This document shows, one piece after another, positions 6,467 through 14,702 of a stretch of 64,000 nt of DNA. The notes under the pieces were generated by a model. That model did no database searches, had not been told where the DNA came from, and saw only the letters and a list, made by a program, of their open reading frames with translations. Both the position numbers and the translations under genes were made by a program. Location: positions 193,924-257,923 of the forward strand of contig NZ_FCOU01000012.1 in the NCBI RefSeq assembly GCF_900046475.1, in the 5' to 3' direction. The stretch's first letter is position 1, and every line of letters begins with the position of its first letter. The stretch comes from Collinsella ihumii. GTDB taxonomy: Bacteria; Actinomycetota; Coriobacteriia; Coriobacteriales; Coriobacteriaceae.

Positions 6467-7552
6467 CTACGCATCTGCAGGGGGCTCGATACCCAAGTGA
6501 TCGAACGCGACGGCTGTGGCCACGCGTCCCTGCGGCGTCCTCACGATCAAACCGCGCTGCAGCAAATAGGGCTCGTACACGTCCTCCATCGTGTTGGGGT
6601 CCTCGCCCACCGCGCTCGCCAGCGTGGTGAGGCCGACCGGGCGGCCGCGAAACGTCTTGACGAGCGTCTCCAGGATGCGGATGTCCATCCAGTCGAGACC
6701 GAGCTCGTCGATCTCGAAGAACGAGAGCGCCTCGCGCGTGATGGGATAGTCGATATGCCCCCCGCCGCGCACCTGTGCGTAATCGCGCACGCGCTTGAGC
6801 AGGCGGTTCGCCAGGCGCGGCGTCCCGCGCGAGCGGGACGCGATCTCGCAGGCGGACTCGTGGTCGATCTCCACGCCCAGAATGGTCGCCGAGCGCACCA
6901 CGATATCGGCGAGGTCGGCGATGGAGTAGTAGTCGAGGCGGAACGAGATGCCGAAGCGGTCGCGCAAGGGGCCGGTGAGCATGCCAGAGCGCGTCGTCGC
7001 GCCCACGAGCGTGAAGTGCGGGATGTCCAGGCGGATCGATCGGGCCGCGGGGCCCTTGCCGATCACGATGTCGAGGGCGAAGTCCTCCATCGCGGGATAG
7101 AGGATCTCCTCCACCTGGCGGTTCAGGCGGTGGATCTCGTCGATGAACAGCACGTCGCCGGGCTGCAGGTTCGTGAGGATGGCCGCCAGGTCCCCCGTGC
7201 GGGCGATGGCGGGGCCCGACGTCGTCTTGATCTGCGCGCCCATCTCGTTCGCGACGACCGCGGCGAGCGTCGTCTTGCCGAGGCCCGGAGGACCCGAGAA
7301 GATCACGTGGTCGAGGCATTCGCCACGCGACTTGGCCGCCTCGATGAGGATGCGCAGGCTCTGCTTGATATGGTCCTGGCCGCAATAGTCGTCCAGGCGC
7401 TGCGGGCGCAGCGAGCGCTCGACGTCCAAGTCCTCGGTGGTGAGGTTCCCGGTGACGAAGCGGCCGTTCTCGTGCCCTCCCGCGGCCGAAGAGGGATGCG
7501 GGGGCGCCGCATCGGCCCACAGGTCTACCGAATCATCTGCTTCCCACATCAT
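6467..7552 (-). CDS. ruvB: Holliday junction branch-migration ATPase RuvB
   Basis: A 361-residue AAA+ motor that drives branch migration with RuvA. It has Walker [12 protein letters not shown], Walker B FIDEIHRL, sensor [18 protein letters not shown] and a C-terminal winged helix. The N-terminus is about 25 residues longer than E. coli RuvB. Its ATG overlaps the ruvA TGA as ATGA, so it is the last gene of a translationally coupled ruvC-ruvA-ruvB operon. Confidence 0.97.
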
Positions 7553-8169
7553 GCATCCATTCCGAGACGCTTCAGCGCCGCGGTCAGAAGATCCTCGACG
7601 CGCATGCCGTCCCCATCATATCCGGAAAGCGCGAGGTCGACCTCCTGCGGGCTGAATCCCATGGACAGCAGCGCGGCGCGCGCGTCATCGATCGCGGAGG
7701 GCGCGGGTGCGGGTGCGAGCGGCAGCTGGCCGGCTGCGGGGATATCGGCCGCCAGCAGGCCGTGGTCCTTGGCGAAGACGCTCTTGAGCTCGAGGATGAG
7801 ACGCTGGGCGGTCTTCTTGCCCACGCCGGGCACCGTCGCCATGCCCTGGTCGTCCTCCGCCATCACCACGCTGTAGAGCTGGGACACGGTGAACTTCGAC
7901 AGGACCGCGAGCGCGAGGCGCGGACCGACCTTCGAGACGGACACGAGCCGCTCGAACATCGTACGCTCCTCCTTAGTGGCGAAGCCGAACAGCGTCATGG
8001 CGTCCTCGCGCACCTGCAGGCGCGTGAACAGGCGGCACTCCTCGCCCGGCGCGGGCAGGGACGCCGCCGTCGTCCCGGATACCCCGAGCTCGAACCCGAC
8101 GCCGCCGACGTCGACGACCGCCGCGCTCGGCGTCGCCTCGATGAGCGTTCCGCGAATCTGGGTGATCAT
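7549..8169 (-). CDS. ruvA: Holliday junction DNA helicase subunit RuvA
   Basis: A 206-residue RuvA. The OB domain starts [28 protein letters not shown], followed by the tandem helix-hairpin-helix region ([15 protein letters not shown] and [16 protein letters not shown]) and, after an Ala/Pro linker, the C-terminal RuvB-binding domain ([17 protein letters not shown]). ATG 8169 overlaps the ruvC stop codon by four bases. The longer upstream frame lacks RuvA homology, so this start is preferred. Confidence 0.96.
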
Positions 8170-8690
8170 GAGTAGCCGTTTCCCCTCTTCTCGACATACG
8201 ACCAGCCGCTCAGGGCAGCGGTTCGACGTTGGTTGGCATGGCAGATGGCGCAGGCGAGGGCATCGGCGGCATGGTCCGGGCGCGGGTCGTGGTCGAGGTG
8301 GAGAAGATTGCGCACCATGTACATGACCTGGCCCTTGTCGGCAGCGCCGGTGCCCACGACCGCCTGCTTGATCTGCATGGGCGTGTACTCGCCCACCTCG
8401 ACGCCGCACAGCGAGATCGCGACGAGCGCCGCGCCGCGCGCATGCGCCGTCGGGATGGCCGAGCGGACGTTCGCGCCGAAGTACACGCCCTCGACCGCCG
8501 CCTCCTGGGGACGGTAGCGCTCCACCACCGCCGTCAGGTCGTCGGCGATATGGCGAAGGCGCACGGCCAGGTCGCTGCCCGAAGACGTCTGGATGCAGCC
8601 GTATGCGCGGCAGCGCACCTCGCCGCGGCGCTCCTCGACCACGCCCCAGCCGGTGTTGGCGAGACCGGGATCGATACCCAAGATGACCAT
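8166..8690 (-). CDS. ruvC: Crossover junction endodeoxyribonuclease RuvC
   Basis: A 174-residue Holliday-junction resolvase. GIDPGLANTGWGV carries the first catalytic Asp, EGVYFGANVRSA the Glu pair region, and DPRPDHAADALACAICH the C-terminal catalytic acidic residues. ATG 8690 is preceded by GGAGG at a short, normal spacing. It is the first gene of ruvC-ruvA-ruvB. Confidence 0.96.
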   Translation of the reverse strand: MVILGIDPGLANTGWGVVEERRGEVRCRAYGCIQTSSGSDLAVRLRHIADDLTAVVERYRPQEAAVEGVYFGANVRSAIPTAHARGAALVAISLCGVEVGEYTPMQIKQAVVGTGAADKGQVMYMVRNLLHLDHDPRPDHAADALACAICHANQRRTAALSGWSYVEKRGNGYS

Positions 8691-8802
8691 GCGCACCTCC
8701 TCACGCGTGTATGTTCGAACATCTGTTCTACTATACCATGAGAGCCGGTCCCGCATGGACACATTTTTCCATCTCGCGCCCGCCCTCCGCATGCCCTCCG
8801 CA

Positions 8803-8866
8803 TGCAAGAAACAGGTACGTCCCCCTCTTGCAAAAATGCATGCGGGGGACGTACCTGTTTCTTGCA
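8803..8866. repeat. Perfect 23-bp inverted repeat, GGGGAC palindrome family A
   Basis: Arms at 8803-8825 and 8844-8866 are perfectly complementary and include AGGTACGTCCCCC. It sits between ruvC (start 8690) and the stop of the next gene (8901), both on the minus strand. It shares the GGGGACGTACC core with 12176-12259 and 14629-14702. Confidence 0.8.
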
Positions 8867-8900
8867 CTTTTGCATGGGAGGCGCACCTCGCGGGGCGGCA

Positions 8901-10883
8901 TCAGTTCTGGGAGAAGAAGGGGTACTGCCTGATATGGCTGCCGAACGCCTGCTGGGCGTCCGCATCGGGCACCTGCCCGTCGGAAGCGGAGTTCAGCATG
9001 GACCGCAGGCTGCTCTCGAAGCGCTCCATATTTTCGCGCATGCGCTGCTGGCCCTCTTCGCTCATGAGCTCCTCCTGCTGCTCGGGAGACAGGCCGAGCA
9101 GGTTTCCCAGAAGGCCGAGGATCTCGCCGCGCACCCGCTCGCTGTGCGCCTCGCCGAGCGACTCGACGTGCTTGACGCCCTCGCGGGCGACGTCGACCAC
9201 CGTGCGCGGTTCCTCCCCATGACGGCCCAGATCGGACCAGCCGAGCATGGCGGGCCAGATGCGCTCGCCAAACGAGCGCGGGGACACCGCCGGGATCATG
9301 GGCAGCGCGCGGCGCGCCATCTCCGCCCGCCTCGTCAGCATGAGCAGGATGGCGGCCCCTTCCGGCGAGGTCTTGTACAGCGGAAGCTCCTCCAGCACCC
9401 GGTTGCGGTCAACATGCGCCTCGAGCGCGCCGTCAATCTGCGTGGGTTCGAGCGTCGCCAGAAGCTGCGCCATGCGCTCCGTGTAGACGGGGTCCTCGCG
9501 GCACGACATGATCGCGTGCGCAAGGATCAGCCCCATGCGCTCGGCAACCGCCTCGAGCGTGACGACCGAAGGCGGCAGCACCGACGAGACCCGCATGCGG
9601 TAGCGGGCGAGGAACTCGAGCGATGTCAGGTAGACGTCGCCGAACGGGGCGTCCGCGGCAAGGGACGCGCCGGAGCTCAGCGCGGCGGCAGGCGCGAGCG
9701 CCGCGTCGGTCTTGGTGAGCGACGACAGCATGCAGGCGTCCATCTCATGCGCCACGTCCGCCAGGTACAGCGCGTCGATGCCGATCCGCAGGCGCCCCGC
9801 GTCGCGTGCAGGGACGTCGCGGTCCATCCAGCGCGAGATATCGCCCTGGGAGCGCTCGACCAGCCGGATGTTCAGATTGGCGGCGAGCTGCCTGACGCAC
9901 TCCATGCGCTCGCGCTCCTGCGCCTCCTGCTGCGGGGTGAACACATCGGAGCGCTCGAACGCCACGCCGACCACGTTGCGCGGGCCGAGCGCGTCGACGG
10001 CGAGCACGGCGAGCAGGCTCGACGGAAGATCGCCCTCGAGCGCCAGCGCCGCGCGCGCACGGCCGCTCGCCTGCACCGTGTCGCGCACATGCAGGCGAAG
10101 CGCCTCCCAGATCCACTCCTCGCGGAAGAAGCGCGGCAGCTCGTGCGCATCGAGCGCCGGCACGATCACGCCACGGCTGACCTCCTGGATCAGCAGGTCC
10201 TCCTCGAAGCACGGCGAGTAGGCGACGACGCGACCCGAATCGTCCATCACGAACGACCCGCCCGTGTAGACCGTCTCGTCGAACGCGCCGACCGGCGCCA
10301 TGCAGGCGAGCCACACGCCGTTTTGGGACGCGACCTCGGTGAAGTGCCCGTCGGCCACGCCCGCCACCGCGCAGGTCTCCTCGTTGTAGGCGTTGAAGCC
10401 GCTCATCTGGAAATAGATCGCCACGTCGCATCCGCGCGGCAGCTGCGGCATGTCGCGCTCCAGGTCGAAGACGGCGGCCACGCGCGAACCCGCGACGTCG
10501 AAGACCGCCGGCTCCCACACGCCGACATCGAACCTTCCCGTGCGCAGGGAGAACATGGTGCGCAGCGGCAGCACGCGGCCCTCGCGCAGCAGAAACGCCT
10601 CCACGAAGGGGGTCTGCTCGATGGCGACCACCGCGGGAACCAGACAGTCGACGCCGAGGTGCTCCACCCTCCGGGCCACATCGGCAAGACCGCCCACCAG
10701 GTCGTTCTCGTAGTTGGGATAGTCAACGAGCGTCGTCGGCTGCATGCCGCCGAACAGCGGGACCGGCGCGCACAGCAGGTTCGCACCGGCGCGCGCGGCG
10801 AGCTCCGCCTGGTCGGCGATCCGCGCGCACGTGCCCTCTATGTCTCCAAGGCGCATATCGATCTGCGCCAACGCAAGCTTCAT
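8901..10883 (-). CDS. NAD-synthetase-like protein with degenerate active sites
   Basis: A 660-residue protein with the architecture of glutamine-dependent NAD synthetase: an N-terminal nitrilase-like half (residues 1-250) and a C-terminal synthetase-like half (about 255-560) with DALGPRNVVGVAFERSD. The catalytic signatures are missing. The nitrilase Cys motif (usually ICEDLW) reads VFDLER at 138-143, the Glu motif region reads CAPVPLFGG, and the synthetase P-loop (SGGxDS) is replaced by EGDLPSS at 283-289. A tail of about 100 residues is extra. The start is ATG 10883 with GAGGGGAT upstream. It probably does not make NAD; a structural or ligand-binding role is possible but unknown. Confidence 0.7.
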   Translation of the reverse strand: MKLALAQIDMRLGDIEGTCARIADQAELAARAGANLLCAPVPLFGGMQPTTLVDYPNYENDLVGGLADVARRVEHLGVDCLVPAVVAIEQTPFVEAFLLREGRVLPLRTMFSLRTGRFDVGVWEPAVFDVAGSRVAAVFDLERDMPQLPRGCDVAIYFQMSGFNAYNEETCAVAGVADGHFTEVASQNGVWLACMAPVGAFDETVYTGGSFVMDDSGRVVAYSPCFEEDLLIQEVSRGVIVPALDAHELPRFFREEWIWEALRLHVRDTVQASGRARAALALEGDLPSSLLAVLAVDALGPRNVVGVAFERSDVFTPQQEAQERERMECVRQLAANLNIRLVERSQGDISRWMDRDVPARDAGRLRIGIDALYLADVAHEMDACMLSSLTKTDAALAPAAALSSGASLAADAPFGDVYLTSLEFLARYRMRVSSVLPPSVVTLEAVAERMGLILAHAIMSCREDPVYTERMAQLLATLEPTQIDGALEAHVDRNRVLEELPLYKTSPEGAAILLMLTRRAEMARRALPMIPAVSPRSFGERIWPAMLGWSDLGRHGEEPRTVVDVAREGVKHVESLGEAHSERVRGEILGLLGNLLGLSPEQQEELMSEEGQQRMRENMERFESSLRSMLNSASDGQVPDADAQQAFGSHIRQYPFFSQN

Positions 10884-11044
10884 CGGATATCCCCTCATCA
10901 CATCACTGCATCCATGATAGCCGCTCGGCGCCCGCCCGTAGGCGAGCGCGCAACAATAAGCGAAGGGCCGCCCGCACGGGACGACCCTTCTTTGCACGGC
11001 ACGCGGCGATCCCCCGCCGCAGGCGGCGACGGGATGCTACATGC

Positions 11045-11404
11045 TTAGAACTTCGCGCTCCACAGACCATGCAGGTTGCAGTACGCATAGATGGTACCGG
11101 ACTTCATGCCGCCGGCAAAGAACGTGACCGGCGTCTGGCCGGGCTTGAGATAGTGGACCTCGAGACGGTCATCGGCCTCGAGCGCCACCCACTCGATGTA
11201 GTGCTCCTCGACCATGGGGTGCTCGACCTCGCCGATCTGCACATGGATGATGTGCCCGTCGCGCTGCAGGTCGACAGAGGGGACGTGCTTCTCGGTGGCG
11301 GCGTCCACCGTGTTGGGCTCGAGCGCGGTGAAGCCCTCGGGCACCGCCTCGCCCTTGATGTTCGCCAGGAAATTGCCGTTCTCATCCTTATAGAACGTAG
11401 CCAT
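11045..11404 (-). CDS. Superoxide-reductase-like protein (desulfoferrodoxin family)
   Basis: A 119-residue protein whose C-terminal 85 residues carry the iron centre II ligand set: EKHVP (His40), EHPM (His62), EEHYIEW (His68), and YCNLHGLW (Cys109, His112). This centre reduces superoxide to peroxide in anaerobes. The N-terminal 35 residues occupy the place of the desulforedoxin domain but have no cysteines, so centre I is absent, as in class III-type enzymes. The downstream uspA-like gene on the same strand also fits a stress role. Confidence 0.88.
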   Translation of the reverse strand: MATFYKDENGNFLANIKGEAVPEGFTALEPNTVDAATEKHVPSVDLQRDGHIIHVQIGEVEHPMVEEHYIEWVALEADDRLEVHYLKPGQTPVTFFAGGMKSGTIYAYCNLHGLWSAKF

Positions 11405-12175: not shown

Positions 12176-12259
12176 GCGGCCCCGTGCAAATTCGGGGACG
12201 TACCCGCTGCGTGCATTTTTGCACGCAGCGGGTACGTCCCCGAATTTGCACGGGGCCGC
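12176..12259. repeat. Perfect 40-bp inverted repeat, palindrome family A
   Basis: Arms 12176-12215 and 12220-12259 are perfectly complementary around a TTTT loop. The core reads GGGGACGTACCCGC. It fills most of the gap between the usp start (12070) and the ABC-ATPase stop (12268). Confidence 0.85.
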
Positions 12260-13080: not shown

Positions 13081-13164
13081 AGTCGACCTCATTTCCGCAC
13101 GGATGTTTTGGCTATGCTACGCCAAGCGCCCCCACGCGAAAAGGGCCGAAACGAGATTTGAGCT

Positions 13165-13236
13165 TTTGGGGACAGTCCCTTTTTGTTCACGACGGCGCCC
13201 ATGCGCCGTCGTGAACAAAAAGGGACTGTCCCCAAA
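13165..13236. repeat. Perfect 34-bp inverted repeat with GGGGACAGTCCC core
   Basis: Arms 13165-13198 and 13203-13236 are perfectly complementary with a four-base loop. The arm begins TTTGGGGACAGTCCCTTTTT. It lies between the divergent ABC-ATPase and ilvA starts, so it cannot be a simple 3' terminator for either. Confidence 0.85.
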
Positions 13237-13260
13237 GGTTCCCCATGCGCCGGGCCCGCG

Positions 13261-14628: not shown

Positions 14629-14702
14629 CCTCATGCAAATCGGGGACGTACCTGCCGCGTGCATGAATGCACGCGGCAGGTACGTCCCCGATTTGCATGA
14701 GG
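14629..14702. repeat. Perfect 35-bp inverted repeat, palindrome family A
   Basis: Arms 14629-14663 and 14668-14702 with a TGAA loop. The core reads CGGGGACGTACCTGCCGCG. It directly follows the ilvA terminator, so the 497-bp ilvA-ilvD gap contains terminator, repeat, then promoter and leader. Confidence 0.85.

Follow-up and report, generated by a model that had tools for sequence, protein, structure and literature searches.

A NAD synthetase homologue devoid of both catalytic centres, retained in Collinsella and related bacteria with a conserved C-terminal tip

Why would bacteria keep a gene for an NAD synthetase in which the residues of both catalytic centres have been replaced? The enzyme, NadE, produces NAD, and many bacteria cannot live without it; the question is raised here by pNadE, a gene found in the window (i.e. 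the whole 64,000-nucleotide stretch of Collinsella ihumii DNA that was analysed). A sequence-only reading had described it as a NadE-like frame with lost active sites and an additional tail, possibly retained as a nucleotide sensor or a scaffold. Relatives were compared across the families of the order, numbered f1 to f10. Family f1 is the window's own and was taken as Coriobacteriaceae since the only relative that bears a name belongs to an uncultured Collinsella (74% identity); family f5 is, as a guess, Atopobiaceae. The parts of the gene are as follows.

8901..10883, minus strand: pNadE, coding sequence of a putative 660-residue NadE pseudoenzyme (ATG at 10883, TGA at 8901-8903)
10134..10883, minus strand: nitrilase-like (glutaminase) half, residues 1-250, with Glu, Lys and Cys replaced
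9228..10133, minus strand: synthetase-like half, residues 251-552
10020..10037, minus strand: former SGGxDS loop, now EGDLPS (residues 283-288)
9708..9713, minus strand: K391-T392, remnant of NKSE, with the Lys kept in 25/25 tabulated f1 and f5 rows
8916..9227, minus strand: variable C-terminal tail, residues 553-656
8904..8915, minus strand: C-terminal tip FSQN, residues 657-660 (F-S-x-N-COOH in relatives)

Fold and catalytic motifs

Both halves of pNadE were recognized by Pfam, barely above the cut-offs (CN_hydrolase, 31.3 bits for a cut-off of 23.2; NAD_synthase, 22.4 bits for a cut-off of 21). A profile built from 30 orthologues matched structures of glutamine-dependent NadE along nearly the full length (5kha, 226 bits; 3n05, 210 bits; 4f4h, 208 bits), and the two-domain homology to PRK13981-type NadE was found throughout, PF02540 being detected in 30/30 and PF00795 in 29/30 members at E 0.01. 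The NAD-synthetase fold and the NadE order proposed from sequence alone were thereby borne out, as was the open frame, which comprises 660 residues and a stop codon. An AlphaFold prediction of pNadE from two sequences reached a pLDDT of 36. The closest NCBIfam model, equivalog PRK13981, gave 102.1 bits, well short of its cut-off of 479, and two f5 members scored 139.8 and 117.2 bits; this cut-off was also missed by intact copies from f3 (L080, 391.4 bits) and f7 (L085, 420.0 bits). Since both Pfam scores are just above the cut-offs, automatic annotation may label pNadE as an NAD synthase, and metabolic models of Collinsella could miscount. On the plus strand, positions 8802-11048 hold a 748-codon open frame antisense to the whole gene; GC-rich sequence often yields such antisense frames.

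Thirty intact PRK13981-type NadE proteins from the phylum served as a yardstick for the motifs, and all of them (30/30) displayed the nitrilase Glu, Lys and Cys as well as SGGxDS. The window protein has EGDLPS where SGGIDS would stand. SGGxDS was absent from 76/76 aligned rows (59 from f1 and 17 from f5), which include many close relatives, motifs having been read in the named rows rather than in all 155 genomes. The nitrilase Glu occurred in none of these 76 rows (the L069 row begins beyond this position), and the Cys column held Asp in 12/12 tabulated f1 rows. The claim that the nitrilase Cys and Glu and the P-loop had been replaced was thus confirmed, and the orthologue alignment that had been recommended as a check revealed a P-loop loss common to all 76 rows.

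A detailed motif table of 25 rows (12 from f1, 13 from f5) extended this picture. The second Gly of the pyrophosphate loop was lost in 25/25 rows, and the loop Asp in every letter printed (12/12 f1 and 12/13 f5 rows). Most NKSE and YGD residues had gone; in NKSE only the Lys was kept throughout, and the Glu had become Asp in 10/12 f1 rows. Motif ENxxxR was mostly lost. What remained included Lys391, Pro413 and Asp416 (25/25 each) and Arg524 (24/25); many such residues are conserved in true NadE too and may be structural. With the second loop Gly missing from all rows, and NKSE and YGD mostly eroded, these sequences argue against normal ATP binding by pNadE, while saying little on NaAD. In sum, pNadE displays neither the nitrilase Glu-Lys-Cys set nor the SGGxDS and NKSE/YGD motifs of a glutamine-dependent NAD synthetase; its loss of catalytic motifs across the orthologues of the clade is that of a pseudoenzyme of the NadE superfamily. 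Bacterial pseudoenzymes in general likewise combine conserved motif loss with a retained fold. Literature searches for a NadE pseudoenzyme found none among the matches listed.

Retention and selection

A pNadE match with an open frame and full-length homology was present in 65/65 f1 genomes, and a match was found in 90/91 f5 genomes of the order-wide sample, genome G093 being the exception. Among 193 close f1 pairs (equal length, 75-99.5% identical, not mutually independent), median dN/dS was 0.062 (range 0.034-0.128), consistent with purifying selection after the loss, as measured in f1. The long-term retention without NadE catalysis that had been proposed is strongly supported by these data: the motifs are lost, yet the gene has been kept. 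A misread frame was rejected in view of the open frames and full-length homology in f1, and a strain-specific decay was discarded on account of the family-wide matches in f1 and f5, the shared loss and the dN/dS values. Orthologues with intact motifs had been named as the observation that would speak for such a decay. Homologues with an intact loop do occur in other families (see below), with f3 offering the best case for orthology to pNadE; the loss itself, however, is old and common to f1 and f5.

On a longer scale, three more distant genome pairs gave pNadE dN/dS values of 0.23-0.35 versus 0.13-0.19 for the intact NadE encoded elsewhere in the genome, while one very close pair gave 0.028 versus 0.052. 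Over long times pNadE thus evolves faster than intact NadE, yet it is clearly constrained. A decaying pseudogene without function would account for the faster change in 3/4 genome pairs, and for a change that also exceeds that of neighbours (e.g. in L046, 51% identity for pNadE versus 83% for RuvC). This explanation is extremely improbable, being contradicted by the selection data, with dN/dS around 0.06 in close pairs, by the frame that stays open in 65/65 f1 genomes and by the conserved tip.

When the close f1 pairs were analysed by part, dN/dS was 0.044 for the nitrilase half, 0.059 for the synthetase half and 0.084 for the tail. The proximity of the first two values would suit a ligand sensor, in which the dead pocket would still recognize a nucleotide such as NaAD or NAD and pass on the signal by way of the tail. 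So would Lys391, Asp416, Arg524 and the many other scaffold residues that remain, and Lys391 with Asp416 could form a ligand site, counter to the docking role discussed below. Yet the loop has lost its second Gly and its Asp, YGD and ENxxxR are mostly gone, and most of the kept residues are conserved in true NadE as well. We regard the sensor as rather unlikely; of the roles first suggested for pNadE, the sensing of NAD or ATP is a possibility that the data do not support.

The same residues lend themselves to an enzyme repurposed around a new active site on the old fold, for instance with Glu95, Arg108, Lys391 and Asp416. Thr392 is specific to f1 and f5 (25/25, with Ser in all others), and Glu95 and Arg108 are found in 22/25 and 20/25 rows, respectively. 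Both, however, are already present in the intact f3 copy, and 30 rows displayed no invariant or nearly invariant Cys, which leaves a new enzyme unlikely.

The other NadE and the order of the losses

An intact nadE elsewhere in the genome had been suggested as a check, and one was found on the same contig (C12:58472-60505), about 140 kb from pNadE. It has all motifs and belongs to another NadE subfamily, PRK02628 (NF002730, NAD(+) synthase), with 830.4 bits for a cut-off of 473. This long fused NAD synthetase is a distant homologue of pNadE from which it differs by intact motifs, by its place on the contig and by the absence of a comparable tip; 679-680-residue chains (3dla, 6ofc) likewise matched the pNadE profile weakly. 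Long NadE matches at E 5e-113 or better occurred in 65/65 f1 and 90/91 f5 genomes (none in G264). Elsewhere in the sample the best ones were in G110 (f2) and in G109 and G118 (f6), the rest being at E 1e-21 or worse. Ten f1 copies all displayed CED and SGGLDS, as well as the nitrilase Glu (nine by pattern, one by eye), and 7/10 fitted the strict Lys pattern. Judged by these motifs, another gene would supply the active enzyme.

Among 34 relatives from other families of the order (f2 G143, f3 G066, f4 and f6-f10), the synthetase loop read S, G, G, D, S in 34/34, and neither the nitrilase Glu nor the Cys was found; the Lys column was printed for all save one f6 row. NadE proteins with a dead glutaminase and an intact synthetase loop were observed across much of the order (L116, L117, L119-L134, L084, L085), and they probably use ammonia. 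Because all 34 relatives keep the loop and show no nitrilase Glu or Cys, the glutaminase centre died first and the synthetase centre afterwards. A search of 21 genomes from f3 (G066), f4 and f6-f10 recovered, in place of the long NadE, a NAD_synthase domain of 220-258 bits in 18; the exceptions were G069, with two in pieces, and G070 and G087, with none.

A tree of 66 rows united f1 and f5 in one clade (100/100), with f3 and the long-branched f8 adjoining and the references outside. Family f3 was sampled by three genomes, one of them without a usable copy. Genome G066 displays an intact synthetase (TIGR00552, 217.5 bits for a cut-off of 63.65), whereas the copy in G074, split over two contig pieces, is dead (AGDLDS, DKTA) and accompanied by a separate small NadE bearing SGGKDS. 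The dead G074 copy and that of G066 branch together (94/94), pointing to a second loss that occurred independently; this is the favoured reading of the sequences, a single dead clade not being rejected by the AU test (p 0.199).

The natural reading is that a further NadE, when present, left the synthetase site free to decay. For the NAD synthetase family, horizontal transfer as well as loss in particular lineages has been described (PMC3376133, abstract), which fits such a replacement; Collinsella, Coriobacteri- and Atopobium do not occur in the text of PMC3376133. A second NadE does not force the loss, since an intact-loop copy coexists with another NadE in G075 (f4; 238 and 121 bits) and in G143 (f2; 240 and 119 bits). 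In G109, G118 and G110, all of them with the long NadE, no good match to the pNadE family was obtained; by sequence this is outright loss rather than retention, G109 and G118 being only 82% and 77% complete.

The near-perfect co-occurrence of both genes in f1 and f5 might also mean that pNadE regulates the intact NadE or forms heteromers with it, and NadE enzymes are indeed homo-oligomers. Simple replacement already predicts this co-occurrence, however, the two genes lie far apart in the window's genome, and G074 pairs its dead copy with a small NadE of a different type. Such a partnership is quite unlikely.

The C-terminal tip, the neighbours and a possible docking role

The additional C-terminal tail noticed at first was confirmed. 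It extends 69-132 residues beyond Trp549 in relatives (about 111 in the window protein) and is variable, except for its very end: Phe657, Ser658 and Asn660 were invariant in 30/30 aligned relatives. Mean column entropy was 0.56 bit for the last four residues, whereas the tail averaged 2.26 bits and the two halves 1.88 and 2.00. An F-S-x-N-COOH end was found in 74/75 f1 and f5 rows (L034, cut by a contig end, being left out), the exception reading FAQN, and three further f5 copies end likewise. This tail, the missing motifs of both catalytic domains and the score below the equivalog cut-off separate pNadE from the short fused glutamine-dependent NAD synthetases of PRK13981 (NF010588; 5kha, 3n05, 4f4h), with which it shares domain order and scaffold residues. 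A very diverged pNadE in f5 (L199, genome G230) is a 1085-residue frame ending in NPFSIN, perhaps a pNadE fused to more sequence.

Both f3 proteins, the intact one from G066 and the dead one from G074, end in FSKN. The tip, and with it any docking, looks older than the loss of the synthetase motifs, since the intact copy, a single protein from one draft genome, carries the same ending. Terminal Asn residues were also recorded in 21/21 f6 proteins, all with an intact loop, and in 0/12 proteins from f2, f4 and f7-f10 and 0/30 references. The f6 tails did not align with those of f1 and f5 (hhalign probability near 0); a common origin is not supported by this comparison, and the f6 Asn may be a convergence. 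A general C-terminal tag was rejected as well: the pattern of a Phe codon, an A/T-C/G-N codon, any codon and an Asn codon followed by TAA or TGA gave 8 matches in the window's genome versus 6 when read backwards, and pNadE alone among the 8 ends a long ORF, the others closing 9-88 open codons.

The gene lies in a mostly conserved order, dfx-pNadE-ruvC-ruvA-ruvB, with a formate-tetrahydrofolate ligase gene farther downstream.

11045..11404, minus strand: desulfoferrodoxin-family gene (dfx), upstream neighbour (Pfam PF01880, 64.9 bits)
8166..8690, minus strand: ruvC, downstream neighbour after a 210-bp gap (Pfam PF02075)
7549..8169, minus strand: ruvA
6467..7552, minus strand: ruvB

Among loci with flanks, desulfoferrodoxin precedes pNadE in 21/21 f1 and 13/17 f5 cases and ruvC follows it in 21/21 and 16/17, respectively. 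This linkage suggests co-expression, and is no proof of shared function. Membership in the RuvABC Holliday-junction machinery would explain the near-constant company of ruvC, as well as the fact that G093, the sole f5 genome without a pNadE match (one contig, 99% complete), yielded no RuvC or RuvB either, apart from one weak match to a 465-residue frame; in its congener G089 the three stand side by side. The G093 absence may however reflect a single block deletion or faulty assembly, pNadE and ruvB are on different contigs in G126, and the intact f3 orthologue, although adjoined by desulfoferrodoxin, is not near ruvC, its RuvC being on another contig. An integral role in RuvABC is accordingly judged unlikely. 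A cis-acting arrest peptide for ruvC was disfavoured too, the intact f3 copy having the same tip away from ruvC.

Near-universal retention, strong selection, a near-unchanging ending and the making of NAD by another gene make it highly probable that pNadE has taken on a new role other than catalysis. A docking peptide would be expected to look like this, with a conserved motif at the carboxy end of a variable linker, and docking through the tip is the best candidate for the reason why the gene is kept; of the roles first proposed, that of a scaffold would fit such a tip. In SSB and FtsZ a variable tail ends in a conserved docking tip at the C-terminus, and pNadE would share their layout of a folded core, a variable linker and conserved final residues; we know of no sequence relation between them. 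We lean, by a little, towards pNadE being a NadE pseudoenzyme kept for an older protein-docking role and freed from catalysis by another NadE. The ancestral NadE would have been bifunctional, with synthesis in the core and protein docking through the tip. Once another NadE had released the synthetase site, the latter would have decayed while scaffold and tip were kept, and pNadE would now act by offering its tip, held at the end of a flexible tail, to a partner, which might, as a weak guess, be a neighbour (desulfoferrodoxin, RuvC, RuvA or RuvB) or the other NadE.

More tentatively, and with some doubt, the ancestral docking job may survive in the last four residues alone, glutaminase having been lost first, then synthetase, perhaps repeatedly, in lineages in which another NadE had taken over. 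If so, these bacteria would be a natural experiment in which a second, hidden NadE function stands isolated, possibly one linked to the defence against superoxide (dfx) or to the repair of Holliday junctions (ruvCAB). A family-wide dead NadE with fold and tip kept would point to a role beyond catalysis for a protein of NAD synthesis in common bacteria of the gut. It would also offer a step-by-step record from enzyme to pseudoenzyme, with the glutaminase centre lost first and the synthetase centre later, in the presence of another NadE.

Two further observations concern the surroundings of these genes. Four palindromes of 64-84 bp, whose arms are 93-100% complementary, were found in the window (8803-8866, 12176-12259, 14629-14702 and 13160-13241); three share the core GGGGACGTACC, one of these lying between pNadE and ruvC, and the fourth has a GGGACAGTCCC-type core. 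Presumably they are dispersed REP or MITE-like elements. The f6 NadE loci L119, L122-L124, L126 and L131 (and in part f4 L129 and f6 L133) occur in a different conserved block, whose neighbours look, as guessed from sequence, like RecJ, RelA/SpoT, an EamA transporter and an aldolase.
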